Below are positions 557 through 25,321 of a stretch of DNA of 64,000 nucleotides, one piece after another. A program made the position numbers and the translations under genes. How positions within the stretch are numbered: position 1 is the stretch's first letter; every line of letters begins with the position of its first letter. This stretch comes from Chitinophagaceae bacterium. GTDB lineage: Bacteria; Bacteroidota; Bacteroidia; Cytophagales; Cytophagaceae. The notes under the pieces are model-generated. The model was not told where the DNA came from. It did not search any database and saw nothing but the letters and a program-made list of their open reading frames with translations. The stretch covers positions 1 through 64,000 of the forward strand of contig JAQBNU010000094.1 in the NCBI GenBank assembly GCA_028288365.1, given 5' to 3'.

Positions 557-2119
557 TTATTTATGAAAGTAATTGATTTGGTATAATTCGAATCGCTCGT
601 TTTTTATAATGCCGTCATTGAAACTTGCGAGGTGTTGAATTTGAAGGTCATTGTCCTGGTATACGATTTTATCGGTTGCATTTTTTTTGTCTGGGAAAAC
701 ATGTCGATCGAGCAATAAGAAGACTCTTTGTTGATCGGGGAAGGAGTGAATTTGTTGGAGTAATTCAGTTTTACCAACTTCCCATTTGAGCACGTTCCAT
801 AAGCCATAACTGCCGTAACCATGGTATTCCGGATAGTATAGACGTTTATCCAGATAAGCAGACATTGCTGCTCCGGAAGGAAATCCGCTTAAAATAATTA
901 GGTCTTTGTCGTAATGGTGTTGTTGAAGGTAAAGGGCTACTTCTTTTGAATTGCAAAAGTTTCGTTGGAGATCTAAGGTGTAAAAATAAACAGCAGCTAA
1001 TGTTTGTACAAGGAGTGTACTATAAATCAATCCTTGTGTGATCCATTTATTTTCTTTACTGAAAAAAGAAGGAAAGTGTATTTTTTGCAGGTATTTTTTG
1101 TAAGGAGTTTGATCGATGCCGTCTTGTAACCATACCGCTGCATAGAAACATAAAAAAATGAATCCCCAATGACGAACAGTGAAATTATACATGAGTCCGG
1201 TATAGAAAAATAAACTGATGCCCAGTGAGCTTAATACAACAACCAGTAATGACAAAGGTTTACTGCCAAACGCTTTGAGTAACGCAAATGGAAAGAGCAA
1301 CGTAAATATGCCGCCCATGATTTTATTTACGGTAAATAAATTGGTGTTCATGGGATAAACGTTCCATACATCCGGGAATTGATAGAAGGCTTTGAATGGG
1401 ACACCAAATGATCGGAATCGTTCGGCTGTGAAATAACCGGGTTGTGGTAAGTAAGAAAAAATGGAATCCTTTTGAGGTAGCACTTGTAGGATGCCCAATA
1501 GCAAACCAATGAAGAGTATGCCGATTGATACACTCCATACGGATAGTTTTGTTTTTTGATTTTCATCTTGTAGCAGCAAGAGTAAAGATACCATGGCCAA
1601 AGGCAAAGAGATGATCAATCCCAAAAAATGAGAATTGGCCAATAAGAATAAGGCCAATGCGATCATCGGATAATTTCTATGGTCACGACACATCAATAGG
1701 CAATACCAGGTGATCCACAAAAAGCAGAGCGCATAATTTCTACTGATGATGTTGTATTCGTAGAAAAAGAAATAGCTGAAGGCAAAAAGTACTTGTTTGA
1801 TTCTATTGAAGGGGGCATACCTGGTCAGTAAAAAGACGGATAAGGTCGTAATCACAATGTGTAGCAACTGCATATAAAACACCTCGTGTGTGAAAGGCAT
1901 GAAGCACCAAAGCAATATATACCACAACATGGGATGTCCTTCCTGACGCGTGTGTCGGATGAGGTCAATAAAAGAGGAAGAGTCTCTTGCTATCGTAAAA
2001 CTGTGTGCTTCGTCCAACCAGATCTCATGGTGCAAGATTCCCCAAAGGCTCAGCAGAAAATAAACCAGCGTAAAGAGTAAAGGAAAGAAGAGTCTGTTGG
2101 TGGTTAGCGTACGGAACAT
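557..2119 (-). CDS. GT-C-fold membrane glycosyltransferase-like protein
   Basis: This 520-residue protein is very hydrophobic, with about ten membrane segments. The first loop contains WLDEAHS (Asp36-Glu37), matching the acidic catalytic motif in the first extracytoplasmic loop of GT-C enzymes such as the PMT/ArnT family, and is followed by EGHPMLWY. Such enzymes transfer sugars from polyprenyl-phosphate donors to lipids or proteins on the outer face of the inner membrane. The C-terminal roughly 130 residues form a soluble region with alternating polar and hydrophobic stretches. The gene stands alone between convergent and divergent neighbours, so context gives no substrate. The start at 2119 is the first ATG before the first membrane helix. 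Confidence 0.75.
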   Translation of the reverse strand: MFRTLTTNRLFFPLLFTLVYFLLSLWGILHHEIWLDEAHSFTIARDSSSFIDLIRHTRQEGHPMLWYILLWCFMPFTHEVFYMQLLHIVITTLSVFLLTRYAPFNRIKQVLFAFSYFFFYEYNIISRNYALCFLWITWYCLLMCRDHRNYPMIALALFLLANSHFLGLIISLPLAMVSLLLLLQDENQKTKLSVWSVSIGILFIGLLLGILQVLPQKDSIFSYLPQPGYFTAERFRSFGVPFKAFYQFPDVWNVYPMNTNLFTVNKIMGGIFTLLFPFALLKAFGSKPLSLLVVVLSSLGISLFFYTGLMYNFTVRHWGFIFLCFYAAVWLQDGIDQTPYKKYLQKIHFPSFFSKENKWITQGLIYSTLLVQTLAAVYFYTLDLQRNFCNSKEVALYLQQHHYDKDLIILSGFPSGAAMSAYLDKRLYYPEYHGYGSYGLWNVLKWEVGKTELLQQIHSFPDQQRVFLLLDRHVFPDKKNATDKIVYQDNDLQIQHLASFNDGIIKNERFELYQINYFHK

Positions 2120-9564: not shown

Positions 9565-11439
9565 TTATTCCTTCACTATCTTGGCAGAGGATGTCATTTC
9601 GTTTGAGATGACTTGCACAATGTATACTCCACTCGCCAGTCCCTTAAGATCCATTGTTTTTTCAAAGATACCTGCATTCGCCTGGTAACTGCCTTGCTGT
9701 ACGACTTGTCCTGAAGTAGTTGTGACGCTGTAAAAAATGGTTTGTGCTTCGCTCAGCTCTGTTACAAAAGCATTTGAAGTGATGATAATGGAATGAGGTG
9801 TATGCGTGATGAGCCGAACAGGTGAGTAGGTAAATGCTCCGTCTGTATCAACCTGCTTGAGTCGGTAATACGTAGTGGATCCGAAGACATCGCTGTCGAT
9901 GAAGGAATAGGTTTTAGGAACATTACTTGATGTACCTTCCGATAGTACAGATCCTATGGTATTAAATGATATACCGTCTGTGCTTTTCTCAACGATGAAT
10001 GCTGCGTTGTTTTTTTCAGAAGCTGTTTTCCAATTTAGACTGGCTGTATGTTCAGATACATCAGAGGCATTGAAGTATTCCAGTTCCACAGGTAATGTGC
10101 CGCAATTGCTGCTGCAATTGATGCGTAGCCAGTTTAATTTAAGTGGAGTACCGTTCGCTGCTGTCAGGTAAATCTTTTGTTGGCCTGCCGTTAAATTTAC
10201 TCCGGTCAATGTTTTCGTTTGCCAGGCACCGCCCGTGTTCAGTGATGCCGTAGTACCTAACAAGGCATTGCCTGGATAAGTACGCACAGCAATTGTACTG
10301 GCTGCTGTTGAATTCACACGAAAGTCCATCGTGTAGGTTTGTGTAGTTGGGATATCTACATTGTAGAAAATAGTATCGTTGCTGTTGGCTACAGGAGATG
10401 CAAAATTGTAAGCATCCAATCTACCGTCCAGATCTGTAGTGGGTTCGAGTTGTATAGAATAGGGCCAGTTGCAGGCCGATCCATTCCAGTCGCAGTAGGT
10501 CACACTTTTACTGATGTAGTATTCTGCTTCTATGCGTGCGTTCACATTATGGAAATACGTTTTATCATAAGAAGACATGTGTTCATAGATCGTTCCCAAA
10601 GCCGATAAGCTACCTGTGGTTTGAGAAAAAATATCCGTACTCGTTGCAGAAGGAGAGGATCGCACAAGGAACCAGGCGTAGCGGAAAATATCCGGATCTT
10701 TTTCCATGAAGTCTAAAACATCGACCATTAAAGCCGCTTGCTGTGTAACACTATTGGAACCTCCATAATCAAACTCTGTAACCCACATGGGGCGGTTGTA
10801 TTTTCTATAGGCATTCAACACACCCTGAAATCCATAGTACCAGGTATCGTAAATGTGTATCGCAATGTGATCGACTCTGCAACCTGGACAGGCAGTGAAA
10901 AAATCATCGAGCCATACCGAGCCCGACATGTTGTTGTACCCTGATATGCATGTGCCGTTGCAATAGCTCATCGCCGGACTGACTATTTTTAAGTTGTGTG
11001 CTGTGGCAATGGCTTCTACTTGTGGCCAGAGGGCCGCAGCCTGTGCTGGGGTCATGTTGGATTGTACAGAATAATTTGGTTCGTTAAATGTGAGTAAGTA
11101 CTTTACTTCTGGATGTCCGTTCAAATAATTGTTAAGAGCCGTAGGATTCCAGGTGCCGTTCCATAACATCGGACAGAATTCCAAATAATTTTGATGGGTA
11201 TTGATGACGCTGGCGTTGGGAGTGTTGGCCCAGTTATAAAACCAACTCAATGTATCTGCCGCCAGACAATCGGCATTGTTTAATAAATCTCCAGCTACTC
11301 CGCGTTTTGGACTGATGGTTTGTGCCTGGACTTGGAAGGTAATGGTTGAGAAAAGAAAGAGAAAAAGGAAAGCCGCAACCATTACCCGTTTTAAAGAACG
11401 GAGAGCATGACGTCTGGTAGGATAAGGGTACGGCAACAT
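9565..11439 (-). CDS. Secreted GH128-like glycoside hydrolase with CBM6-like and T9SS sorting domains
   Basis: A start at 11439 (MLPYPYP) gives a 624-residue product whose hydrophobic segment VAAFLFLFLFSTITFQVQAQ is the signal peptide; a shorter start at 11382 is also possible, and the frame stays open to 11529. The catalytic domain (about residues 45-285) has the GH128/Asl1-like signatures FNEPN (Glu120) and WVTEFD (Glu222), the probable acid/base and nucleophile of endo-beta-1,3-glucanases. It is followed by a CBM6-like beta-sandwich (RIEAEYY to KLNWLRI), a fibronectin-like region (VEKSTDGISFNTIG) and a C-terminal type IX sorting domain ending SSAKIVKE. It probably cuts fungal or algal beta-glucan outside the cell. 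Confidence 0.85.
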   Translation of the reverse strand: MLPYPYPTRRHALRSLKRVMVAAFLFLFLFSTITFQVQAQTISPKRGVAGDLLNNADCLAADTLSWFYNWANTPNASVINTHQNYLEFCPMLWNGTWNPTALNNYLNGHPEVKYLLTFNEPNYSVQSNMTPAQAAALWPQVEAIATAHNLKIVSPAMSYCNGTCISGYNNMSGSVWLDDFFTACPGCRVDHIAIHIYDTWYYGFQGVLNAYRKYNRPMWVTEFDYGGSNSVTQQAALMVDVLDFMEKDPDIFRYAWFLVRSSPSATSTDIFSQTTGSLSALGTIYEHMSSYDKTYFHNVNARIEAEYYISKSVTYCDWNGSACNWPYSIQLEPTTDLDGRLDAYNFASPVANSNDTIFYNVDIPTTQTYTMDFRVNSTAASTIAVRTYPGNALLGTTASLNTGGAWQTKTLTGVNLTAGQQKIYLTAANGTPLKLNWLRINCSSNCGTLPVELEYFNASDVSEHTASLNWKTASEKNNAAFIVEKSTDGISFNTIGSVLSEGTSSNVPKTYSFIDSDVFGSTTYYRLKQVDTDGAFTYSPVRLITHTPHSIIITSNAFVTELSEAQTIFYSVTTTSGQVVQQGSYQANAGIFEKTMDLKGLASGVYIVQVISNEMTSSAKIVKE

Positions 11440-11790: not shown

Positions 11791-12354
11791 TTGAACCCTA
11801 TATCGAAAGAAGAATTAGCTGTCCTCATTGAGGGTTGTATCAACAAAGACAGAAATTGTCAGCGGTTGTTGTATACACAATTCTTTAGTGCGGGTATGAA
11901 CATCGCTTTGCGGTATAGCAATTCAAAAGACGAAGCCAATGAAATATTAAATGATGCGTTCTTGAAAATATTCAAGAAAATATCTACCTGTAAAATTGAA
12001 AATTCTTTCAATGGGTGGATCAGACGCATCATCATCAACACAGCGCTGGATTTTTACAGGAGAAACAAAAAGCATTACCATCATTTGTTGCTGGAAGACG
12101 ATATGGTGTCCCACAACAATGTAATCGACGACATCAGTTACGAAGACATTTCCAAACTGATCAACTTACTTTCTCCTGCCTATAAAACCATTTTTAATTT
12201 GTATGTCATTGATGGTTATACACACAAAGAGATTGCAGAGATTATGGATATATCTATAGGTTCATCAAAATCTGGCTTGTCCAGGGCAAGGGTGAATTTG
12301 CAGAAAATGCTAAAAGAAATATACGACATCGACTATGAACGAAATGCAGGATAA
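11791..12354 (+). CDS. RNA polymerase ECF-type sigma-70 factor
   Basis: The 187-residue product has a sigma region 2 (LLYTQFFSAGMNIALRYSNS, then DEANEILNDAFLKIFKKI and SFNGWIRRIIINTALDFYRR) and a region 4 helix-turn-helix (LLSPAYKTIFNLYVIDGYTH, then KEIAEIMDISIGSSKSGLSRAR). It directs RNA polymerase to an alternative promoter set. The start is a TTG; an in-frame TAG lies 12 bases upstream at 11776-11778 and the next Met is inside region 2, so TTG is the best candidate. It overlaps the next gene by 20 bases, implying translational coupling and joint function. Confidence 0.88.
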   Translation: MNPISKEELAVLIEGCINKDRNCQRLLYTQFFSAGMNIALRYSNSKDEANEILNDAFLKIFKKISTCKIENSFNGWIRRIIINTALDFYRRNKKHYHHLLLEDDMVSHNNVIDDISYEDISKLINLLSPAYKTIFNLYVIDGYTHKEIAEIMDISIGSSKSGLSRARVNLQKMLKEIYDIDYERNAG

Positions 12355-13990
12355 AGAACTAGATGATTTATTCAGAAAATCGTTGACGCAGCCGGAGATT
12401 CCTTTTGAATCGGAGGCGTGGAAAGCGATGGAAGCTAAGCTGGACGCTGATGATAAACGTGTGTTTTATTACCGTTGGATCGCAGCATCTATGGTGGGTA
12501 TTCTATTATTGGGAGGGTCACTTTGGTTTGTTCGTTCCTCCTTTTATGATACACAACCAGCAAGCGTTGTGCAGCATACGGTGAAGCAAGAACAAACAGC
12601 AGGTCTACATAATACTGTTCAACAGAAAGAAATAGTGGCTGTTGAATCGAATCCTTTGGAGAATAACACGACAGCTTTCTCCGTACAAGAGGTGAAAGGG
12701 AATACTGCGGTTGTACAGTCACCCAAAGATCATAAAGTAATTGATGTAAAAGAGGGTAAAAACTCATCTACTACTTTTAGTTCTTCTGATAAGATATCCG
12801 AACAAGCTCACCCAAGCAATCATCAGATAAATGCACGACACGAAAAAATAAAGCAAGAAAGAATATTGGCTATTCAACAGCATGCCTATAAAAAGGCAAT
12901 GCCCATCAGTTCTTTTGAATCTCTTACTACTGCTGCAAGAGAAGCGGCCATGTACCTTTCTTGGGACAAGGCTGTTCATGAAAAACAACAGGATAGTTTG
13001 CTGGCTTCTTTCATCAAGCGAAGAACAACTTATAAAAGCATTACCATTTACAATAAATGGTTGGGAAAATTCTTGGCAAAATGTTCACGCCACAATAAAA
13101 AGACAGAAATGCCAATTACTCTTTCTGACGTCACGGCAACTAATGACAATATTATAGAGAGAGAACAAGCTCCTATCGTTCCCGATGGGACAGTGAATAA
13201 GATTGCTGCTCAGGAAATCAATGAAACAAAAGTTAATTTGAACACAACAGATACAAATACTTCAACTACTACTATCAGTTTTCCACAAGCAGATGAAGCA
13301 CTTGTACTTTCAATGGATTCTACAGTCATACCGGATAGCACGGTTCATGTACCTGCAACGGATGTAAAAGAATTACTCACACGTTCTGCTTTTAAAAGAG
13401 GATTTAGTTTGAGTTTTGTAGTGAATCCGGAGTTTAGTTCTACGACTGATTTTAGTTTTTATAAACCGGGATTTAATTTTGGTTTGTATGCAGAGTATTA
13501 TTTATCTCCACGATTCAGTATTCTTGCGGGTGTGTTGTACAGTAAAAAAGTATACACTTGTAGTCCTTACGATTATGCATCTGCTCCTTCGTATAATTAC
13601 TGGGGACAAAACTATACAGCTGATGCAGTGAATGCTTATTGTGCCGTACTGGATATACCGGTCAACGTGCGTTACAAGTTTCTCAGCAGAAAATCATACA
13701 ATCTATATGCTGCTGCAGGTTTGTCGAGCTATATCATGTTGAAGGAAAATTATAATTTTGAATACCAGATGCCGTATGGTACAAAAGATTATGCTTACGA
13801 GATCGATAATAAAAACAGGTATTTCTTCAATGTTGGGAATTTATCTTTGGGGATCGAAAAATACATCAGCAACCATTGGTCAGTACAGGCGGAGCCTTAT
13901 GTTAAAATGCCATTTGGTGGAGTAGGTGCCGGTAAAATAAAACTAGTGAGTACTGGAATGTATTTTTCAGTGAAGTATTATTTTAGATAA
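12335..13990 (+). CDS. Sigma-coupled protein: inner-membrane helix plus outer-membrane beta-barrel domain
   Basis: This 551-residue protein overlaps the sigma gene by 20 bases. Residues 1-46 are cytoplasmic-type and helical (QDKELDDLFRKSLTQPEIPF), 48-66 form a membrane helix (WIAASMVGILLLGGSLWFV), about 70-350 are low-complexity and Thr/Gln/Lys-rich, and about 355-551 look like an outer-membrane beta-barrel (RGFSLSFVVNPEFSS, FGLYAEYYLSPRFSILAGV, ending in SVKYYFR). The place next to an ECF factor and the short N-terminal cytosolic segment suggest an anti-sigma-like role, with the barrel sensing or anchoring at the outer membrane. No canonical anti-sigma (FecR or zinc-binding) motif is present. 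Confidence 0.75.
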   Translation: MNEMQDKELDDLFRKSLTQPEIPFESEAWKAMEAKLDADDKRVFYYRWIAASMVGILLLGGSLWFVRSSFYDTQPASVVQHTVKQEQTAGLHNTVQQKEIVAVESNPLENNTTAFSVQEVKGNTAVVQSPKDHKVIDVKEGKNSSTTFSSSDKISEQAHPSNHQINARHEKIKQERILAIQQHAYKKAMPISSFESLTTAAREAAMYLSWDKAVHEKQQDSLLASFIKRRTTYKSITIYNKWLGKFLAKCSRHNKKTEMPITLSDVTATNDNIIEREQAPIVPDGTVNKIAAQEINETKVNLNTTDTNTSTTTISFPQADEALVLSMDSTVIPDSTVHVPATDVKELLTRSAFKRGFSLSFVVNPEFSSTTDFSFYKPGFNFGLYAEYYLSPRFSILAGVLYSKKVYTCSPYDYASAPSYNYWGQNYTADAVNAYCAVLDIPVNVRYKFLSRKSYNLYAAAGLSSYIMLKENYNFEYQMPYGTKDYAYEIDNKNRYFFNVGNLSLGIEKYISNHWSVQAEPYVKMPFGGVGAGKIKLVSTGMYFSVKYYFR

Positions 13991-14141: not shown

Positions 14142-15605
14142 TTAGCGCTTGGCTTCCAGATGCAATCTGTACTTCTCCACTTTTGACATGATAAAATAAT
14201 AGGGTAGTGCTGCTACTCTTTTATAATTAAAAAGTTTGTCATTTTTTTCTGTAGTGAAAATGTTTTTCAGATAATTCAACGCCTGATGTTCACGGTAGGT
14301 TTTGTGTACGTAGCGGTGCAGGCGTTTATAAAAAGGAGAGGCGTAGGTGTTTTTAAACATCAGGTCCAAATCATCGGAATCTACCCAGTTGGCTTTTGAT
14401 TTTAATTCGCCTTTTACTTTATCGTAAAATACTGTTCCTGGTAAAGGATAAGAAACGGAAATACCAATGTCTTCCGGTAAAAGATCATGAATCATTTTAA
14501 TAGTGAGTTCGATGTCTTTCAATGTTTCACCGAGGTAACCAAATTGAAGAAAAAAACAAGGATCAATGTGGTATTTTCGCAATAATTCTGTTGCCTTGTA
14601 AATTTGTTCGACCGTAATGCCTTTGTCCATGGCATCCAGTATTTTTTGAGAACCGGATTCTGTACCTATCCATACGGTTTGGCAACCTGCGTCCGCAAGG
14701 GCTTTCACGGTTTCTTCCTGCACCAGTAAGTCAGCGCGGGATTGTATTTTAAATTTGAATTGTAATTTTTTATCATTTGCCAGAGAAGCAAATTCTCTGA
14801 TCCAGCCTGGTTTCAAACCAAAGATGTCATCGGAAAACCAAATGTGATCGGGATGAAAATGTTCGATGAGTTGTTCGAGTTCATCGACGATCCTTTGTGG
14901 AGAATGAGAATTGTAGCGGTTGCCATAAATAGGTTTAGCGCACCAATTGCATTTGTAGGGACAACCTCTAGTGGTTACCATGTTCAGCGAAAAGTAACCA
15001 TGCTTCCTGAGCCACCTGTATTTGTATTGGTCGATGTCGATTACATCCCAGGCTGGTAATGGCAATTCATCGAGGTTATTGATCACGTTACGTTTGGCCG
15101 TTGTTTTTAATTGACCATTTTCCTGATAAGTCAAACCATCGATCAGACTGTAATCGTTGGTAACACCTGCCAATAAGGCTTTGGTCAGTTGACGCAATGT
15201 TTTTTCCCCTTCGCCCATTACAATAAAATCAGCACCACGATCAATGTAGGCTTGTGCGTGATCGGTAGCATCTGAACTGCTGACAATGACTTTGCAGCCC
15301 TGCTCGGCGGCGAAGCGTATCATGTCGTAAGCCGCATGACGCATATTACTCAGACACATTTTTGTAAGGTAGTTGAATCCATCGTCGCAAATAACAAAGA
15401 TAGATGGACGTTCTTTTCTTATAGCATTTTTTATGCCTTCGCAATCGATCGAAAACATGTTGTCAAAAAAACACACGTCAAGATCCACGTCTCTCAAAGC
15501 AGAGACAGCGTACAAGGTTCCCAATGGAGGATAAGGTTGCATGGCTTTCCATTGCTTGGGATCAAAGCGCAGAAAATAAGAATGTGTGATTAAAACATCT
15601 GCCAT
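14142..15605 (-). CDS. B12-binding-type radical SAM enzyme
   Basis: The 487-residue protein has an N-terminal cobalamin-binding-like Rossmann region (YPPLGTLYAVSALRD near residue 25, VMGEGEKTL near 130) and a radical SAM barrel with the iron-sulfur cluster motif CPYKCNWC (Cys215, Cys219, Cys222). Enzymes of this class use a 4Fe-4S cluster and SAM, often with cobalamin, for methylation or ring rearrangement of unreactive carbons. Its ATG overlaps the TAA of the upstream nucleotidyltransferase gene by one base (TAATG), so the two are co-translated. It is diverged from the second radical SAM gene at 16920. The substrate is unknown. Confidence 0.88.
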   Translation of the reverse strand: MADVLITHSYFLRFDPKQWKAMQPYPPLGTLYAVSALRDVDLDVCFFDNMFSIDCEGIKNAIRKERPSIFVICDDGFNYLTKMCLSNMRHAAYDMIRFAAEQGCKVIVSSSDATDHAQAYIDRGADFIVMGEGEKTLRQLTKALLAGVTNDYSLIDGLTYQENGQLKTTAKRNVINNLDELPLPAWDVIDIDQYKYRWLRKHGYFSLNMVTTRGCPYKCNWCAKPIYGNRYNSHSPQRIVDELEQLIEHFHPDHIWFSDDIFGLKPGWIREFASLANDKKLQFKFKIQSRADLLVQEETVKALADAGCQTVWIGTESGSQKILDAMDKGITVEQIYKATELLRKYHIDPCFFLQFGYLGETLKDIELTIKMIHDLLPEDIGISVSYPLPGTVFYDKVKGELKSKANWVDSDDLDLMFKNTYASPFYKRLHRYVHKTYREHQALNYLKNIFTTEKNDKLFNYKRVAALPYYFIMSKVEKYRLHLEAKR

Positions 15606-16540
15606 TAATTCAGGTTTATTTGATGCAAAGATTCTAATCGTAATACGTTTTGTTGAAACCGCATCAATACTTTGTTCTGATAACCATTGGGATGAAACTT
15701 AGAAACGTGTTTGCTGCATTGCACATCTACCGCGTTTGGAAATTGGTGTCTGAATTTTCTTTTCCAGAAAGCTTCCGTGATTTTCATGAAATAATTATCA
15801 AGCCTTTCTCCTAAAGGTCCGGATAAAAGCCTTTCCAATTGTCTCTTGATCCATACGGTACCAGAATAGGTAATTTGTCGCTTGTGTGTGAAGTTAGGCA
15901 TGTAGTAAGACCTCCATTCATTGCTTTGCAACATGTCATCGTAAAGGGAACTGTTGTATACAGGAATCAGGTAATTGATTTCTTTTGCTGTAAAAACATT
16001 TTGTTCCTTTATTTTGAGGTGTTCGGTGTCAATGAAGTAATTGGGACAGAAATATTTTTTCGAATTCAATAGAAATATCTTCTTAAATAAAATCAATGAG
16101 GTGCGAGTCAGCCATAAACGATTGGGTGCGGTCACAATAAAAAAATCGATGTCACTCTTTTTGTCCATGTAGCCTTTGGAAAGGGAACCAGAGATCAAAA
16201 CAGCTCTCACAAAAGGAAACCAGGACATAAAACGACCGATCTTTCGGGCAAGCTTTAAATGAGAGAGCGCTCTCTTATTTCCTTTGATGCGATCAGTGAT
16301 AATCGATGCGTTGTTATAAAGAAAATACCATTCGTCGATGTTGTTGATGATACCCAACTCCACGAGCTTATCGATTTCTTCTTTCAGTTGCAGCGAGCCT
16401 ACTCCTTTCAGGGTAGAATTAGCATGAATTTCCTCCAGCTTTAGGGGGTAATTGAAAATGTCAAAATAAATCAAAGAATGCAGAATGTCTTTTGCCAGAA
16501 GAGACAGTTCCAATTCTTTTACCCGTTGAGCATAAATCAT
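15605..16540 (-). CDS. Nucleotidyltransferase-fold protein
   Basis: A 311-residue protein has an N-terminal winged-helix-like segment (residues 15-75) and a nucleotidyltransferase signature GSLSKGYMDKKSDIDFFIV (Gly118-Ser119, Asp130, Asp132), the GS-x(n)-DxD motif of the polymerase-beta/MNT superfamily. It may transfer a nucleotidyl group to a small molecule or protein. The C-terminal half has many aromatic and basic residues and no recognised domain. It is the first gene of a two-gene unit with the radical SAM gene. Confidence 0.78.
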   Translation of the reverse strand: MIYAQRVKELELSLLAKDILHSLIYFDIFNYPLKLEEIHANSTLKGVGSLQLKEEIDKLVELGIINNIDEWYFLYNNASIITDRIKGNKRALSHLKLARKIGRFMSWFPFVRAVLISGSLSKGYMDKKSDIDFFIVTAPNRLWLTRTSLILFKKIFLLNSKKYFCPNYFIDTEHLKIKEQNVFTAKEINYLIPVYNSSLYDDMLQSNEWRSYYMPNFTHKRQITYSGTVWIKRQLERLLSGPLGERLDNYFMKITEAFWKRKFRHQFPNAVDVQCSKHVSKFHPNGYQNKVLMRFQQNVLRLESLHQINLN

Positions 16541-16919
16541 AGCTATAAAAATATAAGGTACGTATTATTGTTTGAAATGCTTTAGCATATCTAATCAGAA
16601 GACGCATTATTTTTTAGAGGGGTTGCGTGTGGATAAAATAAAACGTTGTGGTGTTTGAACGGTTAATGTTAGTTCAATGATTGCTTCTTCCCAGGTCTGT
16701 CGCCTGACAGGCCAGAATGTTCTATATCAAGAGACATCATTTTTGCAATTAACGAACTTACTTGTTATATAAACAAATGGTCTGTCAGGGGACAGATCAG
16801 GGATCAGGATATTTAGTAGAGACAAGATGAAAAGTTTTTCTACCTTGTATACTCAAGCGACGCAACCCTTTTTACTAAAAAAGAGTCTTCAATAGTGGAA
16901 CCTTGTTGCTTTTTGATTC
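16541..16919. promoter_or_regulatory. Divergent promoter region of the radical SAM locus
   Basis: This 379-base gap separates two head-to-head units of the locus and should hold promoters for both. It contains a pair of inverted 20-base repeats (16694-16713 and 16779-16798). No exact TTG...TAnnTTTG promoter was found on either strand. Confidence 0.45.
16694..16798. repeat. Inverted pair of GGTCTGTC...GACAGRYC hairpins
   Basis: The unit at 16694-16713 (GGTCTGTCGCCTGACAGGCC) and the unit at 16779-16798 (GGTCTGTCAGGGGACAGATC) are each near-palindromic. The second matches the reverse complement of the first at 17 of 20 positions. About 65 bases lie between them, a spacing close to that of the pair at 14017-14120. 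They could be a REPIN-like element or paired operators in a divergent promoter. Confidence 0.5.
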
Positions 16920-18428
16920 ATGAAGAAAGTATTACTTTTTAATCCCAGAAGTGCCAGCAGTAAATACAGAATTCCTAATTCTATATTGACTGTTGCAGCC
17001 TCTATTCATGGCAAATATGGATATGCCATTGTCGACGGCAATCTGGAAAAAGATCCATGGATCAAAATCGAAGAATACTTGCGCACGGGTGAATATGGAT
17101 GGTTTGGAAGTACAGTCATGCCGGGTCCTCAATTGAAGCAGGCCATTCCCGTTACTAAAAATATTCGTCAGCATTTTCCTGAAGTGAACATTGTGTGGGG
17201 GGGATATTTTCCTTCCAATCAATACGCCACAGTGATGAATTCTGATTTTGTAGATTACATCATCAACGGTCCTGGTGATATTGCTTTTCCAAGTTTGCTG
17301 GATGCTGTCAATGACAATAGAATAGAAGAACTGGCTAAGATCAAAAATCTTATCTTTAAAAAAGATGGAGAGATTGTAAAAACAGCCAAGGAAGAATTGT
17401 TGAATCAGGATACCTTACCTCCATTACCTTACGATGCACTCGGAGAATTTTATTCCCTGGATAAATATTTAAGTAAAACTTATTTGGGTAAGAAGACCAT
17501 TGCTTACCATTCTAGCTTTGGTTGTCCTTTTACCTGTTCGTTCTGTGCCGTCGTTCCTATCTATGAAGGAAGATGGAAGGGAAAGTCGGCGTTGAATATA
17601 TACAACGACATCAAATACCTGAAACAAAAATATGGAGGAGATGCTATAGAGTTTCACGATAATAATTTTTTTGTTTCGGAAAAGCGTTGTGTGGAGTTTG
17701 CCGACCTGATGAAGGACGAAGGCATGCAGTGGTGGGGAGAAGCACGGATCGATACCATGGATAAATTTTCAGACAGCTCGTTGCAAAAATTAAGAGACAG
17801 TGGGTGCGTGATGATTTTCTTTGGTGCAGAAACCGGTGACGATGCTATCCTTAAACAGATGGACAAAGGTGGAAAACAAACAGGAGAACAGATCAAACGT
17901 TTTGCTGGACGCATGAAACAATTTGGCATCATCCCTGAGTACTCTTTTGTATTGGGGATGCCTGGCAGCAGTCCGGAAAAAGTGATGGAGCAGATTGAGA
18001 GAGAAATTAAATTCATCAAAGAAATAAAAGAAATCAATCCGGATACAGAGATCATCATTTACATCTATAGTCCCGTGCCGACAGAAGGATCGGAGCTGTA
18101 TAAAGAAGTATTAAAATCTGGTTTTAAGTTTCCGGAAAAATTAGAAGACTGGCTCGATCCGAAATGGGAGAGTTTTGATTTGCGCAAGAATCCTTTAACC
18201 CCATGGCTTACGGCACCGATGATTGATAAGATCAAAGGATTCGAAACGGTATTGAACGGTTATTATCCAACAGTATCTGACATCAAGCTGACACCTTTGA
18301 AGAAAAAAGTGATTCGTACGCTGGCGTCATGGAGGTATAAGTGGAGCATACACCACTGGCCTTATGAGATAAAAGTGGTGCAGAAGTTTTGGTTGAAATA
18401 CAGACAGCCTGAAAAAGAAGGTTTTTAA
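16920..18428 (+). CDS. B12-binding-type radical SAM enzyme
   Basis: The 502-residue protein has a cobalamin-binding-like N-terminal domain (VLLFNPRSASSKYRIPN, VNIVWGGYFPSNQ) and a radical SAM core with CPFTCSFC (Cys202, Cys206, Cys209), followed by FFGAETGDDAILKQMDKG and GMPGSSPEKVMEQIE, both standard barrel segments. It is diverged in sequence from the radical SAM at 14142 and is probably not a recent duplicate. The gene leads a tight rightward unit of two methyltransferases and a glycosyltransferase, with three bases to the next start. Confidence 0.88.
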   Translation: MKKVLLFNPRSASSKYRIPNSILTVAASIHGKYGYAIVDGNLEKDPWIKIEEYLRTGEYGWFGSTVMPGPQLKQAIPVTKNIRQHFPEVNIVWGGYFPSNQYATVMNSDFVDYIINGPGDIAFPSLLDAVNDNRIEELAKIKNLIFKKDGEIVKTAKEELLNQDTLPPLPYDALGEFYSLDKYLSKTYLGKKTIAYHSSFGCPFTCSFCAVVPIYEGRWKGKSALNIYNDIKYLKQKYGGDAIEFHDNNFFVSEKRCVEFADLMKDEGMQWWGEARIDTMDKFSDSSLQKLRDSGCVMIFFGAETGDDAILKQMDKGGKQTGEQIKRFAGRMKQFGIIPEYSFVLGMPGSSPEKVMEQIEREIKFIKEIKEINPDTEIIIYIYSPVPTEGSELYKEVLKSGFKFPEKLEDWLDPKWESFDLRKNPLTPWLTAPMIDKIKGFETVLNGYYPTVSDIKLTPLKKKVIRTLASWRYKWSIHHWPYEIKVVQKFWLKYRQPEKEGF

Positions 18429-18431
18429 TTC

Positions 18432-19124
18432 ATGTACAGAAAAAAAGTCATTAAGTACCTGATCGGAAAAACATACCGTCCATTTTTAGAACGGTATCTT
18501 TCTTCTGTGCGTATGTACCGATACTACTCTCTTACTTTGCGTATTCCACCGGGCGTATTTCATCCGGCATTTTTTTATAGCACGCGCATATTGATTCAGT
18601 TTTTGGAAACACAATCAGTGAAGGGAAAGAAATTTTTAGAATTGGGTTCAGGCAGCGGATTGATCGCCATGTTGGTCTCTAAGAGAGGAGCCATTGTTAC
18701 GGCGAGTGATATCAATCCAACGGCTGTTGAAAATGGAATAGAAAATACTCAGCGCAATAAATTGTCTGTTTCTTTTATTCAGTCCAATTTGTTTAAGTCC
18801 TTGTCGGGTGAAACGTATGACATGATCATTATTAATCCTCCATACTATCCGAAGGATCCGATAAGTGAGAGCCAGTATGCCTGGTATTGTGGAAAAGATT
18901 TTGAGTATTTTCATTCGTTGTTTGATCAGCTGTTCGTTCATCTCACAACAGAAGGACAAGCGTTCATGATACTTTCTGATGATTGCGACATTGCTCGCAT
19001 TGAAGCGATCGCGCATGCGGCTTCGTTTCAGTTGAAAAAAGTATACGAAAAAAAATTATGGACGGAAGATAATTATATTTTCGAATTGGTGCATAGCCAT
19101 CAGATTAAAATACAAGACGCATGA
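18432..19124 (+). CDS. SAM-dependent methyltransferase with NPPY motif
   Basis: The 230-residue protein has the SAM-binding motif FLELGSGSGLIAM and the acidic motif ASDINPTAVENG, then NPPYYP, the catalytic-loop motif of HemK/PrmC-like and amino-methylating enzymes. NPPY usually marks methylation of a planar nitrogen, as in glutamine or adenine. It lies three bases after the radical SAM stop and overlaps the next methyltransferase start by four bases (ATGA). Confidence 0.85.
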   Translation: MYRKKVIKYLIGKTYRPFLERYLSSVRMYRYYSLTLRIPPGVFHPAFFYSTRILIQFLETQSVKGKKFLELGSGSGLIAMLVSKRGAIVTASDINPTAVENGIENTQRNKLSVSFIQSNLFKSLSGETYDMIIINPPYYPKDPISESQYAWYCGKDFEYFHSLFDQLFVHLTTEGQAFMILSDDCDIARIEAIAHAASFQLKKVYEKKLWTEDNYIFELVHSHQIKIQDA

Positions 19125-19936
19125 AAGAAGATTTGGCCTCAGTGAACCGTGCGTTCAGTATGCAGTCTGATCAATACGACGAGTATGATGCGTCTAACGG
19201 AATATTGACCTGGATGAGAAAAAGAGTGCGCGGCCATGTGTTGGCTCAATTAAAACCAGGAGATCGCATACTGGAACTCAATGCCGGTACAGGATTGGAT
19301 GCTTTGTTTTTTGTACAACAAGGATATACCGTTTATGCCACCGATCTTTCTGATGGGATGGTGAAACAGATACAACAAAAAATAACAGAAAAAAATCTAT
19401 CACCGAAATTATCCGTGAAGCAGTGTTCCTATACACAATTACAAACACTTCAAAGCGAAAAGTTCGACTATGTATTTTCTAACTTTGGTGGATTGAATTG
19501 TATCCCTGATTTGCGTGCTGTGACACAACAGTTGCCTGCATTGTTAAATCCGGGAGCCCGCATCACCTTTGTCATCATGCCTCCCGTGTGTTTCTGGGAA
19601 ATAGGAAAAGTATTCAAGGGCAAATGGAAAGAAGCTTTCAGACGGTTTAAGAAAAAAGGTTCGATGGCTCACCTGGAAGGAGAATATTTTCCTACGTTTT
19701 ATTTCAGTCCGGCTGATGTGCTTCGTGCTTTTGGCAATGACTATAAAAAAATAAGTCTTGAGGGGCTGGCTACTTTCAGTCCGCCTCCGCATGCCGATCG
19801 TTTTCCGATGAAGCATCCACGCATGTACCGCTTGTTGACGAAGCTTGATGAACAACTGGCAAGCATTCCACCTTTCCGTTCATGGGCCGATCATTTTATT
19901 TTAACTGTACAATATTCACCTGTTCAAAACAAATGA
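19121..19936 (+). CDS. Class I SAM-dependent methyltransferase
   Basis: A 271-residue protein has the motif RILELNAGTGLDALFF (SAM site, near residue 48) and YATDLSDGMVKQI, then FDYVFSNFGGLNC, the pattern of small-molecule methyltransferases such as the ubiquinone/sarcosine group. A C-terminal insertion (WKEAFRRFKKKGSMAHLEG) is consistent with binding a specific substrate. It overlaps its neighbours by four bases on both sides, so the unit is one transcript. Confidence 0.85.
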   Translation: MKEDLASVNRAFSMQSDQYDEYDASNGILTWMRKRVRGHVLAQLKPGDRILELNAGTGLDALFFVQQGYTVYATDLSDGMVKQIQQKITEKNLSPKLSVKQCSYTQLQTLQSEKFDYVFSNFGGLNCIPDLRAVTQQLPALLNPGARITFVIMPPVCFWEIGKVFKGKWKEAFRRFKKKGSMAHLEGEYFPTFYFSPADVLRAFGNDYKKISLEGLATFSPPPHADRFPMKHPRMYRLLTKLDEQLASIPPFRSWADHFILTVQYSPVQNK

Positions 19937-21507
19937 TAAGCGATTACAACAGACTCCTTCGATACAGCGTTCCTTTGGTGCTTCTCCTGTTGGCTTTTGT
20001 CATCAAAGCATTGTCCATGGGTTATTCTGATTTTGCTTCCTATTATTTTGGCAGTCAGGAATTGTTGCAGGGTTTATATCGTAATGCGTATAATACGGCT
20101 TCTTTAAATGCCATCGTTTATGCCAAAGGGTTTCATGAGCTCTTCATTTCTTATACCCCTTTTCCTCCTTTTACATCGCTGTTCCTTGCTCCCTTTTTAT
20201 GGCTGCCAATTGCAACGGCTAAACTGGTTTTTAATATCATTTCCTGTTTTGTTTTTGTCTGGGCACTGGTACGAACGTTTCGTTATTTCTCGATTGCACC
20301 GGTATATATATTGCTTGTTCCGCTGGTGTTTTTTACGCCAATCCGAAGTAATGTGTTTTTTGGGCAAACCTATCTCATGCTGTTTGCCTTGCTCATGGAG
20401 GGATACATGGCTTATGATAAAAAACAAATCCTGTTGTCATCGGTGTTATGGGCTCTTGCCATCGTATTGAAAATATTTCCTGTTCTGATCTTTTTGTTTT
20501 TGCTTATTCGCAAACAATACAAAGCATTTGTCTGTTTGTTAGCGGCATGTTTTGTATTGTTTGCGAGTTCTATTGTCCTTACTGGTTGGTCAGCCTGGCA
20601 ATTGTATTTATTTGAAATTGTACCGCGGATAAACAACGGTGAACTCAATGACAGTTTTACCTGGATCTTCCAATCGGGATTCATGCTCTTGAAAAATATC
20701 TTCATCTACGACGAGTTGTTGAATCCTGTTCCATTATTCGCTAATGCCTATGTGTTTGTTGTTACGATGATTTGTTACAAGGCATTGCTTATAAGCGCAT
20801 GCATCATGGTGACTGTAAAAAGATCATCCAAAGATCTCTTGTCTTTTGCCTTGTGGATCACAGCCAGTTTATTGATCTCACCGAATGGTAGCACCTATTC
20901 TTTGATTTTGTTACTCCTTCCTTTTATTGCTTTAATGGAATGGAATACATCACTGGTACAAAAAGGAATCATTGTGCTTCTGCTCGTGTTAGTTTGCAAT
21001 TTCCCAAACCACTACATGGCTTCAATGCCTTTGTTTTTGAAGTTTCCTCGTTTGTACTTCTTCCTTGCTTTTTTTGTTTTTGTCATGGTAGTGGCAAAGA
21101 TGAAATGGAACAATAAAATAGTACTGGGATGTGGACTTTTGTTTTTGATCGTTGACTCTCCCAAACTATTTTCTTCAGCTAAAGATGGCAGTGCTTATGT
21201 ATTGAAAAAAGAAGAACACCTGCTCATCTATGATTATACGTTTCAAAATCAGCAATTGGTTTATTCTTATTGGTCAGATAAAGGTGGCTTGATGTGTCGC
21301 CTGCCAGACAGCGTCGCTGCGGAAGTGTCATCAGATGTAATGCTTAAGAACAATCAGATTTTTTATAGAGGAAAACAACTCACATACTCATCAGACTGGA
21401 AAAAGAAACCGATGTTGCACGGAGCATACATTGTGTACTTGTCGGATAAAAATAGAGGAGTTGGTTTTTATACCTTGCGTCAGATTAAACGCGATCAGTC
21501 AATTTAA
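19933..21507 (+). CDS. GT87-like membrane glycosyltransferase
   Basis: The start was taken at ATG 19933, which overlaps the previous stop as ATGA and gives 524 residues; the frame continues upstream but that part is inside the methyltransferase gene. It has about ten membrane helices and GT87/DUF2029-type segments: FISYTPFPPFTSLFLAPF, SNVFFGQTYLMLFALL and LAIVLKIFPVLIF. Members (PimE-like) use polyprenyl-phosphate mannose or related donors on the outer face of the membrane. The C-terminal 100 residues are soluble. Its 3' end overlaps the convergent GT9 gene by 23 bases. Confidence 0.82.
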   Translation: MISDYNRLLRYSVPLVLLLLAFVIKALSMGYSDFASYYFGSQELLQGLYRNAYNTASLNAIVYAKGFHELFISYTPFPPFTSLFLAPFLWLPIATAKLVFNIISCFVFVWALVRTFRYFSIAPVYILLVPLVFFTPIRSNVFFGQTYLMLFALLMEGYMAYDKKQILLSSVLWALAIVLKIFPVLIFLFLLIRKQYKAFVCLLAACFVLFASSIVLTGWSAWQLYLFEIVPRINNGELNDSFTWIFQSGFMLLKNIFIYDELLNPVPLFANAYVFVVTMICYKALLISACIMVTVKRSSKDLLSFALWITASLLISPNGSTYSLILLLLPFIALMEWNTSLVQKGIIVLLLVLVCNFPNHYMASMPLFLKFPRLYFFLAFFVFVMVVAKMKWNNKIVLGCGLLFLIVDSPKLFSSAKDGSAYVLKKEEHLLIYDYTFQNQQLVYSYWSDKGGLMCRLPDSVAAEVSSDVMLKNNQIFYRGKQLTYSSDWKKKPMLHGAYIVYLSDKNRGVGFYTLRQIKRDQSI

Positions 21508-22678
21508 GGTAGAGCAACATGGTTTTTATTTTATTCAGAATCGTTTCCGTTTCCATGGCTTGCATGCAAAAATTATTTCCTCCACATGGAAGCACTTCAT
21601 GCCGGTGTATGCATGGTGAACAATGCACATTTGAATAATAGTATAAATGTCTTTCTTCTTCTCCTAAAGGAATTTTCAGGTAATTGTCCGGATCTGTTGG
21701 CCCCCAGATGGATACCGTTGGCAATCCCAATGTTTTTGCCAGATGCAGCGGACCGCTGTCAATGGTTATGAGAAACGCACATTGCCTGGAAAGAAAGTCA
21801 TAATACGATTCGAATCCAGCTGTACCTGCATAATTTATTATTCTGTCTTTGACCGCAGAGAGTTTAGGGTAATGCAAGAGAAACTGTTCAATCGCCAACC
21901 GATCGCTAGGAGCACCTAATAAAGCCAGTTGGTAGGAGGTATGTTGCAGCAACCATTCGCAGATGTTTGCTACCATATCATCCGGAAGTTTTCTCACCAG
22001 TGCCAATTCACTACATGTATTGTTGATAGCAATGAAAGGCATGAGTTGTTCATTTTTACGAGTAGAAGTTAACTCCTCATCAAGCAAGTATTTTGTTCCT
22101 GTCACTGCTTCTGCCATGTGAAGGTAATTGTCTTCGAGGAAAGTAGATTGATCAAACAACACGTTGTGTGTGTTGAGGTACTTGCGGAAAAATACAGGAG
22201 TAAGGTAAAATCCGAAACGATTCTGCGCAAAGGTCATTAGCGAATAAACAGTGGTCAGCTTAGAATAGACTTCCAGGTCTACGACCCAAAGTGATTGAAA
22301 TGTCCATGATTTGACTAAAAAAGAAATGGCATCTACACATGTAGACAAAGGACGATCAGAACGTACGGCCCAGGTTTCATTGAAGAGTTGTAAAGGCGCA
22401 ATGGCGCGATCGATATTGGGATCCGTTAATAAAATAAATTTCGCTTCAGGGTACCGTTGACGCATCCGACGTATGGCCGGTGCGCTGACCAGGAGACTTC
22501 CTATACCTAACAGTTTGATGAAGAGAATCGTTTGAGGAGGAGGATTCAATTGATGATTTCTGCGCAATAAAATTCCCAATAACCTTGTCAAAGGAAGAAA
22601 CAACACAATCAATAAATACCCCACGTATTTGTCGAGCTTTTGTTTGAAAGGAATAGACAAGGTTTTTAGCTTATGCAT
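21485..22678 (-). CDS. GT9 heptosyltransferase-like glycosyltransferase
   Basis: A 397-residue protein matches the GT9 family: ILFIKLLGIGSLLVSAPAIRRMRQRYP near the N-terminus and, in the C-terminal domain, TIDSGPLHLAKTLGLP with SIWGPTDPDNY, the donor-binding part. GT9 enzymes add heptose or other sugars to lipopolysaccharide cores from nucleotide-sugar donors on the cytoplasmic side. A Cys-rich stretch (NVHCSPCIHRHEVLPCGGN) follows, as in several Bacteroidota homologues. It is convergent with the GT87-like gene and probably part of the same glycan locus. Confidence 0.85.
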   Translation of the reverse strand: MHKLKTLSIPFKQKLDKYVGYLLIVLFLPLTRLLGILLRRNHQLNPPPQTILFIKLLGIGSLLVSAPAIRRMRQRYPEAKFILLTDPNIDRAIAPLQLFNETWAVRSDRPLSTCVDAISFLVKSWTFQSLWVVDLEVYSKLTTVYSLMTFAQNRFGFYLTPVFFRKYLNTHNVLFDQSTFLEDNYLHMAEAVTGTKYLLDEELTSTRKNEQLMPFIAINNTCSELALVRKLPDDMVANICEWLLQHTSYQLALLGAPSDRLAIEQFLLHYPKLSAVKDRIINYAGTAGFESYYDFLSRQCAFLITIDSGPLHLAKTLGLPTVSIWGPTDPDNYLKIPLGEEERHLYYYSNVHCSPCIHRHEVLPCGGNNFCMQAMETETILNKIKTMLLYLKLTDRV

Positions 22679-22849: not shown

Positions 22850-25321
22850 TTGGAATTACTTGATTATGAAGTATATTTGAGTACCCAACGGTACGAGATG
22901 AATTTTAGTCAGACATTACAAGCATACGTGAAACGTTATCAGCATGCGTTTTTAGAATTTAAAAATACGTATACCACACGAAGGGGAAAATCCTTAACAG
23001 CTCAAGCTTTACTTCAAGCCAGTGAAGAACGCTTCAGGGCCTTAGCAGATGATGCTCCGGTATTGATTTGGATTTCTGGTACCGATAGGCTGTATCATTT
23101 TTTTAATAAGGGCTGGCTTGATTTTACTGGTCGCACAATGGAGCAGGAAATAGGAAGCGGTTGGACAAAGGGCGTACATTCCAATGATTTAGATCGTTGC
23201 CTAGAGGTGTATCATTCTTCGTTTGAAGCACGCAAAGAATTTTACATGGAATACCGATTGAGGAGACACGACGGAGAGTTCCGTTGGATCTGGGATAAAG
23301 GCGTTCCAAGTTACAGCGATAACGGGGAGTTTACAGGATATACCGGTGCCTGTATGGACATTCACGATCGCATCGTATTTGAAGAAAAATTAAGAGACAG
23401 TGAAGCAAGATTGCGCATCGCAGCGATTTCCAGTGAACTTGGTACCTGGGACTTTAATCCAGTTACACAAGAGATGAGTTGGGACAGTGCCTGCAAAGAT
23501 TTGTTTGGTTCGGCACAAGATACACCAGTGACCTTAGATTTGTTCTGGTCAAAAATGCATCTCGAAGACAAGGCTGCAGCATTGGACAGCATGCTGCGTG
23601 CCATGAATCCGGACATCGCTGAGAATTATGAATCTGAATATCGGATTATTGGATTGCCTGATAATAAGTTGAGATGGATACGTGCCAAGGGCAGAGCATT
23701 CTTTGATCAAAAGGGAGTGCCTGTCAATTTCGCTGGAACAGTACTCGACATTACCGAAGAAAAAATTGCATTGGAAGCATTACAAAAAAACGAACGCAAA
23801 TTTCGTTTGCTCGCAGATGCCTTACCACAATTGATCTGGACGGGCGATGCCGAAGGGCACATAAATTATTGCAGTCAGGCCTTCATCGATTATTCTGGTC
23901 TTCAACTCGAACAGTTGCAGGAAAACGGTTGGTTACAAATTATCCATCCCGAAGAAAAAGAAAGCAATACGAACGATTGGATAAAAGCAATTGCTAATGG
24001 CGAGCCTTTTATTTCTGAACATCGGTTAAGAAGACACGATGGCGAGTACCGCTGGCAATTGAGCAGAGTGATGGCACAGCGCGATGAAAGAGGTACGATC
24101 ATCATGTGGGTGGGAACCAGCACGGATATTCACAAGCAAAAAATGGCATCGACAGAGCTCGAACACAAAGTGGAAGAACGTACGCTCGAACTAGCAGAAA
24201 AGCATGAACAATTCAACAAACAAAAAGAATTTGCGGAGATCATATTGAATTCTTCCGTTGATATCATTTCTTTATTCGATACCGATCTTCGTTACCTGAT
24301 CGTGAATAAAAAATTTGAAGAAATGTATGGCATAAAAGAAAGTGAGATCATTAACCGGGAGATTACCGATGTGTATCCTAAAATGAAGGAGTCAGAGTTT
24401 TATAAGCTTCTACTCGAAGCAAGTAAAGGAAAAGCTTCTCATACGTCGGGTTATCAATCGATCATCACCATGAAGTATTACGAAACGTTTATGGTGCCAT
24501 TGATGTCGCATGGTAAAGTCTCTGCTGTACTCGTTATTGCGCATGATAATACAGAACTCATTCGTGCCTATCACCAGTTGGAAGTAAAGAACAAAGAATT
24601 AGAAAAGTCGAATCATAACCTGGAGCAGTTTGCATACATCGCCAGTCATGACTTACAGGAGCCTTTACGCAAAATCAGAACGTTTACCGAATTACTGTAT
24701 AACAATTTGCCGGATCTGAGTGAACAGTCAAAATCTTACTTTAATAAAATTGATCTGTCGGCGAAACGCATGACAGGACTGATCAGAGATGTACTCAATT
24801 ATTCTCGTCTTTCAATTGCCGAACAATCTATTGATACCGTTGATCTCAACATCGTGGTAGCAGAAATTAAAAATGATTTTGAATTGTTGATCCAGGAGAA
24901 AAAGGCCATTATAAATGCTTTGGCATTGCCCGTGATATCTGGGATTCCTTTGCAGTTGAATCAATTGTTCTCAAACCTTATTGGAAATGCATTGAAGTTT
25001 TGTGATCAATATCCAATCATTGAACTGTATAGTGAAGAGGTGAAAGAACAAGACGTGGTGCAAATAGAACAACTGAATCCTACGCTACGTTATATTCGCA
25101 TTACCTGCAAAGACAATGGGATAGGTTTCGATCCGAAATATGCAGAACAAATTTTCAATATTTTTCAACGGTTAAACAATCGAGATAAATACGAAGGCAC
25201 TGGTATTGGGCTAGCTTTGTGCAAGAAGATCATGGAAAACCACAAAGGCCTGATCATGGCGTCAAGCGGTATATCTGGAGGGGCTGTCTTTCATTTGTAT
25301 TTTCCTGCAGGCATTCGTTAA
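22850..25321 (+). CDS. Multi-PAS sensor histidine kinase, no membrane segment
   Basis: Up to 823 residues from a TTG at 22850; an ATG at 22898 (MNFSQTLQAY) is an alternative start giving 807. Four PAS/PAC repeats span about residues 56-575 (for example RFRALADDAPVLIWISGTD, FRLLADALPQLIWTGDAEG), the last preceded by a coiled coil. The transmitter has H-box FAYIASHDLQEPLRKI (His600), N-box NLIGNALKF, and GFDP and GTGIGLALCKKI ATP-binding motifs. No membrane helix is seen, so it is probably a cytosolic sensor. No response regulator is adjacent. Confidence 0.92.
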   Translation: MELLDYEVYLSTQRYEMNFSQTLQAYVKRYQHAFLEFKNTYTTRRGKSLTAQALLQASEERFRALADDAPVLIWISGTDRLYHFFNKGWLDFTGRTMEQEIGSGWTKGVHSNDLDRCLEVYHSSFEARKEFYMEYRLRRHDGEFRWIWDKGVPSYSDNGEFTGYTGACMDIHDRIVFEEKLRDSEARLRIAAISSELGTWDFNPVTQEMSWDSACKDLFGSAQDTPVTLDLFWSKMHLEDKAAALDSMLRAMNPDIAENYESEYRIIGLPDNKLRWIRAKGRAFFDQKGVPVNFAGTVLDITEEKIALEALQKNERKFRLLADALPQLIWTGDAEGHINYCSQAFIDYSGLQLEQLQENGWLQIIHPEEKESNTNDWIKAIANGEPFISEHRLRRHDGEYRWQLSRVMAQRDERGTIIMWVGTSTDIHKQKMASTELEHKVEERTLELAEKHEQFNKQKEFAEIILNSSVDIISLFDTDLRYLIVNKKFEEMYGIKESEIINREITDVYPKMKESEFYKLLLEASKGKASHTSGYQSIITMKYYETFMVPLMSHGKVSAVLVIAHDNTELIRAYHQLEVKNKELEKSNHNLEQFAYIASHDLQEPLRKIRTFTELLYNNLPDLSEQSKSYFNKIDLSAKRMTGLIRDVLNYSRLSIAEQSIDTVDLNIVVAEIKNDFELLIQEKKAIINALALPVISGIPLQLNQLFSNLIGNALKFCDQYPIIELYSEEVKEQDVVQIEQLNPTLRYIRITCKDNGIGFDPKYAEQIFNIFQRLNNRDKYEGTGIGLALCKKIMENHKGLIMASSGISGGAVFHLYFPAGIR

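Follow-up and report, generated by a model that had tools for sequence, protein, structure and literature searches.

The locus of interest, a group of seven genes around two radical S-adenosylmethionine (SAM) proteins, occupies positions 14142–22678 of a 64,000-nucleotide stretch of Chitinophagaceae DNA (assembly GCA_028288365.1, contig JAQBNU010000094.1, positions 1–64,000 of the forward strand; the whole stretch is hereafter called the window). All seven genes, which had been picked out in an earlier note made from the DNA letters, are present as open reading frames, and their Pfam assignments agree with the descriptions given there. In the following list, rSAM, NTase, MT and GT denote radical SAM protein, nucleotidyltransferase, methyltransferase and glycosyltransferase, respectively.

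14142–15605, minus strand: gene A (rSAM1), radical SAM protein with a B12-type Rossmann N-terminal domain, 487 aa
15605–16540, minus strand: gene B (NTase), nucleotidyltransferase with a winged helix and a Pol-beta fold, 311 aa
16920–18428, plus strand: gene C (rSAM2), second B12-type radical SAM protein, 502 aa
18432–19124, plus strand: gene D, PrmC-like methyltransferase with an NPPY motif (PF05175), 230 aa
19121–19936, plus strand: gene E (MT2), class I SAM-dependent methyltransferase (Methyltransf_25), 271 aa
19933–21507, plus strand: gene F (GT87), membrane glycosyltransferase (PF09594), 524 aa
21485–22678, minus strand: gene G (GT9), heptosyltransferase-type glycosyltransferase (PF01075), 397 aa

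The leftward pair is joined by TAATG at the B/A junction, as the earlier note had read it. The four-base overlaps that it had described among the rightward genes are found at D/E and E/F (both ATGA; the start of F is at 19933, not 19882), but not at C/D, where the two genes lie 3 nt apart. F and G are convergent and share 23 bp. The divergent gap contains no bipartite Bacteroidota promoter (TTTG-N17-21-TAnnTTTG), and neither a cobalamin riboswitch nor any other Rfam RNA was detected within the window. Both glycosyltransferases score well above their family cut-offs (F, 88.8 bits against PF09594, cut-off 25; G, 47.1 bits against PF01075, cut-off 22). Gene D belongs to a family in which the NPP[YFW] motif is found in 17/17 members and which follows rSAM2 at several loci; assignment as a PrmC release-factor methyltransferase (TIGR03534) was rejected, since D scores 73.1 bits against a cut-off of 199.1 despite its NPPY motif.

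The same genes recur together elsewhere. Synteny was counted over 37 rSAM1 loci from order- and phylum-wide samples, with "near" defined as within 10 kb. The NTase gene lies next to rSAM1 in 32 of the 37 loci and near it in 36; MT2 is near rSAM1 in 32/37, and a second B12-type radical SAM gene in 25/37. In two distant genomes (loci L091 and L099), NTase-rSAM1-MT2-GT87-GT9-rSAM2 form a single run, which is the gene set of the window minus the PrmC-like gene. GT87 homologues are present at L024, L025, L028, L029, L046, L087, L088, L091 and L099, adjoined by GT9 at L028, L046, L087, L088, L091 and L099. Several of the genes are also fused: GT4 to NTase at L016 (12935–15007) and L088 (10742–12718), rSAM1 to MT2 at L098, and MT2 to a weakly GT29-like domain at L104 (a fusion tail for which no PDB relative was found).

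These gene associations show three levels of organization: (i) a core module of NTase, rSAM1 and MT2, often with a paralogue of rSAM1 (rSAM1'), (ii) a second module, in which rSAM2 is accompanied by the PrmC-like methyltransferase or, alternatively, by MTc4, by an amidohydrolase and MTc9 pair, or by a SPASM radical SAM protein, and (iii) the combination of both modules with glycan assembly genes, namely GT4, GT9, GT87, a Wzx- or ABC-type flippase and sometimes WcaJ and Wzy. Some loci depart from the pattern. Deep-branching loci L097, L102 and L103 carry NTase-rSAM1 pairs with neither MT2 nor glycosyltransferases nearby, while L051 (11707–13568) has rSAM1-MT2 without an adjacent NTase, alongside a nucleoside-phosphorylase-superfamily protein and a weakly MGAT2-like protein. 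At L011 (8054–9909) and its relatives, a TRZ/ATZ-like amidohydrolase and a class I methyltransferase form a conserved pair beside rSAM2 in several genomes; no PDB match was found for the amidohydrolase.

Because the clustering recurs across many families of the phylum, it is not a product of chance. A chance grouping of unrelated enzymes in a single genome would fit the variable gene order and the unusual arrangement seen in the window, where the A-B pair is inverted and MT2 has moved; this explanation is refuted by dozens of loci across the phylum, by the fusions, and by transfer as one block (see below), and we regard it as vanishingly improbable. The search for the same genes in other genomes that the earlier note had suggested thus returned a set that recurs across distant Bacteroidota, with no scattering of the genes in relatives.

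The two radical SAM genes differ in how widely they are distributed. rSAM2 is rare and patchy, being carried by 8 of 391 genomes of the order. It is found at 14 named loci, at 60–66% identity, in Chitinophagaceae, other Chitinophagales, Saprospiraceae, Pseudochryseolinea flava, a Flavobacteriales genome and Ignavibacteria, and relatives that are 60–70% identical occur in about 20 genomes. An all-genome scan for rSAM2, made with exact peptide patterns and with no systematic search outside the phylum, returned only Bacteroidota and Ignavibacteria records. rSAM1 is commoner (13/391 genomes in the order, 27/396 across the phylum), and in each of the eight genomes of the order that have rSAM2, an rSAM1 gene lies no more than about 17 kb away; the rSAM1 of genome G012 is a fragment cut by a contig end, detected by BLAST. 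No plasmid record encodes an rSAM1 relative at E 1e-40.

What surrounds rSAM1 points to glycan assembly. Neighbouring genes encode GT2, GT4, GT9 and GT87 glycosyltransferases, ABC exporters, and Wzx-like, WcaJ-type, O-antigen-ligase-like, EpsG-like, SGNH and acyltransferase proteins. Using profiles trained on other loci only, and regions of rSAM1-carrying genomes as controls, a glycan gene was detected in 18/26 of the rSAM1 loci that had been held out and in 3/38 of the control regions (Fisher p 3e-7). In the rSAM1 tree, glycan genes accompany 35/39 main-clade members, and the glycan-free loci are mostly deep branches. Wzx/Wzy-type parts lie around some relatives (L014, L080–L083); the block in the window is without WcaJ and Wzy.

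On this evidence we consider it rather probable that the locus is a biosynthetic cassette, distributed horizontally, whose product is an unusual glycan or glycolipid of the cell envelope. The earlier note had proposed a locus for an unusual surface sugar or lipid; that proposal is borne out as regards a recurrent biosynthetic cluster, enrichment in glycan genes and GT4-NTase fusions, while the product and its chemistry stay predictions from sequence. More specifically, and more tentatively, C-methylation or ring rearrangement could give a surface or lipid-linked sugar a new carbon skeleton, through the joint action of two or three radical SAM enzymes of the cobalamin type, a Pol-beta NTase and dedicated methyltransferases. 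The outcome would be a type of sugar new to bacterial envelopes, made by a widespread, undescribed pathway; we hold this to be a real possibility, though somewhat less than an even one.

Several points weigh against an envelope-glycan cassette. Firstly, 10 of the 37 loci lack glycan genes within 10 kb (contig ends truncate two of them, and the rest are mostly deep-branching), and some relatives hold just NTase-rSAM1 or NTase-rSAM1-MT2, with glycosyltransferases not nearby. Secondly, the glycan genes differ from locus to locus, and so a single shared polymer is not implied; the nature of the product, lipid or sugar, is itself a prediction. Thirdly, two of the core proteins fit imperfectly: rSAM1 is without the GG motif normally seen in the cobalamin domain (any GG-type match in 2/47 members), and the NTase gives weak fold matches to MNT antitoxins, aminoglycoside nucleotidyltransferases and Tam41 (Foldseek, best E about 0.01, ranging to 0.1). 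Because some relatives are without nearby glycosyltransferases, the core chemistry may extend beyond glycans; from the deep position of most glycan-free loci in the tree, the core module may be older or broader than its glycan role.

The minimal loci also bear on a different product. Here, the core module would make a modified membrane lipid or hydrophobic metabolite by B12 radical SAM chemistry of the hopanoid, ladderane or BchE type, with the glycosyltransferases only decorating its head group. NTase-rSAM1-MT2 is kept without a nearby glycosyltransferase in several relatives, the top NCBIfam scores of both radical SAM proteins are to BchE and HpnJ, and rSAM1 also scores against rSAM_ladder_B12. 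However, all of these scores are far below the cut-offs (for BchE and HpnJ under one third, the best being 137 bits against cut-offs of 481 and 578), and the annotated neighbours include no recurrent desaturase, acyl-carrier or terpenoid gene. The genes that do recur are Wzy, WcaJ, GT2 and GT4, and GT4 is fused to the NTase. We therefore consider a lipid product unlikely, and favour the envelope-glycan cassette.

We turn now to the radical SAM proteins themselves. Both match the radical SAM domain (PF04055; rSAM1 85 bits, rSAM2 51 bits, cut-off 29.5), and both score slightly below the cut-off of 32.1 bits for the B12-binding domain (PF02310; 22.4 and 30.6 bits, respectively). Nevertheless, PF02310 is matched at E<=0.001 by 13/13 members of each rSAM alignment (that of rSAM1 takes in two rSAM1' paralogues). 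The CX3CX2C motif is found in 47/47 rSAM1, 33/33 rSAM2 and 13/13 rSAM1' proteins, and rSAM1 and rSAM2 are distant from each other (29% identity over 285 residues). An AlphaFold2 model of rSAM1 (predicted local distance difference test, pLDDT, 82.6) matches the folds of MgmA, AprD4, OxsB, TsrM, CysS and TokK with E values of 1e-19 to 1e-14, and the B12-type architecture is therefore real. Against NCBIfam, neither protein scores above a family cut-off. Assignment to a named radical SAM pathway of that collection (BchE, HpnJ, ladderane, HpnR, AprD4, BzaD, PhpK and others) was rejected in each case, all scores being far under the cut-offs; membership of a known family with a fixed pathway, which the earlier note had raised as an objection to its own proposal, was not found.

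With respect to cobalamin, the three groups of radical SAM proteins differ. GGYF is present in 33/33 rSAM2 and GGP in 13/13 rSAM1' proteins, while rSAM1 has SD..D in place of the GG motif in 46/47 members. As the GG motif is lost, rSAM1 is no more than a putative cobalamin user; the earlier note's two B12-type radical SAM proteins hold up in architecture (PF04055 and the rSAM1 fold), and B12 binding is a prediction for both of them. OxsB, TsrM and TokK are class 1 cobalamin-dependent radical SAM enzymes, in which the loop after strand 3 sits under the cobalt (PMC13331322). We infer that the corresponding loop of rSAM1 is its conserved DD.FN loop, and an Asn of rSAM1' appears to align with OxsB Asn186.

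These motifs raise the question of whether rSAM1 works without cobalamin, as an AprD4-like dehydratase with a degenerate B12-type domain, leaving only rSAM2 and rSAM1' as true cobalamin enzymes. The distribution of GG and SD..D is what would be expected in this case, and AprD4, which is not known to use cobalamin, is among the closest structural matches of rSAM1. Conversely, OxsB binds cobalamin and is also without GG in the aligned stretch, and rSAM1 has kept both its Rossmann fold and the PF02310 match noted above. We regard a cobalamin-free rSAM1 as a serious contender, if a slightly less probable one than a cobalamin-using rSAM1; it alters one step and is compatible with the envelope-glycan cassette. 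The host encodes a B12-dependent methionine synthase, and so cobalamin is probably available to it; in a search for a B12 outer-membrane receptor, no TonB-B12 match exceeded the cut-off, and weaker TonB matches were found.

The NTase matches PF01909 at 23.4 bits (cut-off 21). Its model (pLDDT 87.4) combines a winged-helix-like N-terminal part with a Pol-beta core, to which the structural matches are mainly limited. Residues S117, G118, S119, K122, D130 and D132 are invariant in the alignment (GS..K, DxD); the GS...DxD catalytic motif is thus present on a Pol-beta fold, and a simple motif pattern fits 33/47 wider relatives. The NTase may move a nucleotide or phosphate onto a small molecule or sugar.

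A resistance-type role for the NTase is the starting point of another explanation, in which the locus would make a soluble, aminoglycoside-like natural product with radical SAM enzymes of the AprD4 or GenK type, and the NTase would be a self-protection adenylyltransferase. The NTase model resembles ANT(4'') and kanamycin nucleotidyltransferase, rSAM1 is like AprD4 in fold and sequence, and gentamicin biosynthesis typically involves N- and C-methylation. Yet the annotated neighbours show no recurrent cyclitol synthase or aminotransferase family; the presence of GT87, Wzy, WcaJ and flippases indicates a lipid-linked or polymeric glycan; and, unlike a resistance gene, the NTase is a more constant partner than any other, minimal modules included. 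We judge an aminoglycoside-like product decidedly improbable.

For the envelope-glycan cassette, the following sequence of events is proposed, with gene association observed and every chemical step read from protein families. In the cytoplasm, the radical SAM enzymes would remodel a sugar (free, nucleotide-bound or lipid-linked) at unactivated carbons, by C-methylation, deoxygenation or ring rearrangement. Methylation of O or N by MT2 and the PrmC-like enzyme would follow, and the NTase would activate or decorate the modified unit by transferring a nucleotidyl or phosphoryl group to it. GT9 or GT4 would put the modified unit on a carrier for export by a flippase, and GT87 would add sugars at the outer face from a polyprenyl-phosphate sugar donor. 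The cassette of the window would bring its own sigma factor and outer-membrane protein (see below).

The locus can be compared with several known systems. HpnJ (TIGR03471) has the B12-type rSAM architecture in common and remodels a sugar attached to a hopanoid, which offers a parallel to radical chemistry on lipid-linked sugars. It differs in score (136.3 bits for rSAM1 and 109.3 for rSAM2, cut-off 577.6) and in its partners; no hopanoid biosynthesis gene was found among the annotated neighbours. The apramycin radical SAM 1,2-diol dehydratase AprD4 (PDB 6fd2), whose substrate is the aminosugar paromamine, is the second-best fold match of rSAM1 (E 3e-18) and the best PDB sequence match of rSAM2, but identity is about 18%, NF033070 scores are 82.9 (rSAM1) and 59 (rSAM2) against a cut-off of 500 bits, and there are no aminoglycoside pathway genes here. 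OxsB, TsrM, TokK and CysS share the Rossmann B12 and radical SAM domains (rSAM1 fold matches at E 1e-18 to 1e-14); they differ in substrate, are 17–19% identical, and CysS and TokK have the GG that rSAM1 is without. TIGR04295 (B12_rSAM_oligo), which from its name we take to be associated with oligosaccharide genes, is also of the B12 type, with scores of 89.3 (rSAM1) and 22.7 bits (rSAM2) against a cut-off of 400. Finally, GT2, GT4, WcaJ, Wzy-type and flippase genes of Bacteroidota Wzx/Wzy and ABC-type surface polysaccharide loci co-occur with the module; the window block differs in the absence of WcaJ and Wzy, and an NTase-rSAM-MT-rSAM core is not known from such loci.

No description of the gene set or pathway was found in the open-licence literature, in line with the earlier note. 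Cobalamin-type radical SAM enzymes are known chiefly from antibiotics, peptides, hopanoids and chlorophyll. Surface-glycan loci and B12-type radical SAM enzymes are each known, while their conserved combination with a Pol-beta NTase appears to be undescribed. If the proposal is right, many Bacteroidota carry out unexplored sugar chemistry at their surface, and B12 supply is tied to cell-envelope composition. The compact, repeatedly fused set of NTase, rSAM1 and MT2, as one unit, offers clear assay targets.

The surroundings of the locus record its local history. A glycoside hydrolase gene (9565–11439) and a PAS histidine kinase gene (22898–25321) flank the block; in congeners G006 and G007 the two are direct neighbours, and hence the window holds an 11-kb insert. 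Two further genes lie within it:

11791–12354, plus strand: extracytoplasmic function (ECF)-type RNA polymerase sigma factor (Pfam Sigma70_r4_2 and r2; alternative start 11896)
12335–13990, plus strand: protein that appears to have a membrane segment at its N-terminus, with an outer-membrane beta-barrel domain at its C-terminus (Pfam OMP_b-brl_2)

In G006, the rSAM cluster is on another contig (L024), directly behind the same pair: a sigma factor fragment and a beta-barrel homologue lie immediately upstream of NTase-rSAM1. As the pair precedes the G006 cluster too, the sigma and beta-barrel genes (11791–13990) travel with the block, and the functional block spans about 11.8–22.7 kb, including the ECF sigma factor and the outer-membrane protein. 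The sigma factor is probably a dedicated regulator travelling with the cluster, and the beta-barrel protein is possibly an anti-sigma or envelope component. In G005 and G007, neither rSAM was found at the thresholds used.

Two observations concern the wider window. At 557–2119 (minus strand), a 520-aa protein shows 38% identity to an EpsG-like protein inside the G006 rSAM cluster (L024, 8384–9964), and is possibly a displaced member of the pathway. A polysaccharide-utilisation locus occupies 41519–62749. It encodes a SusC-type receptor and a protein of the SusD family, together with at least seven sulfatases, of which five, about 770 aa each, come from consecutive genes; this suggests the use of a heavily sulfated glycan.

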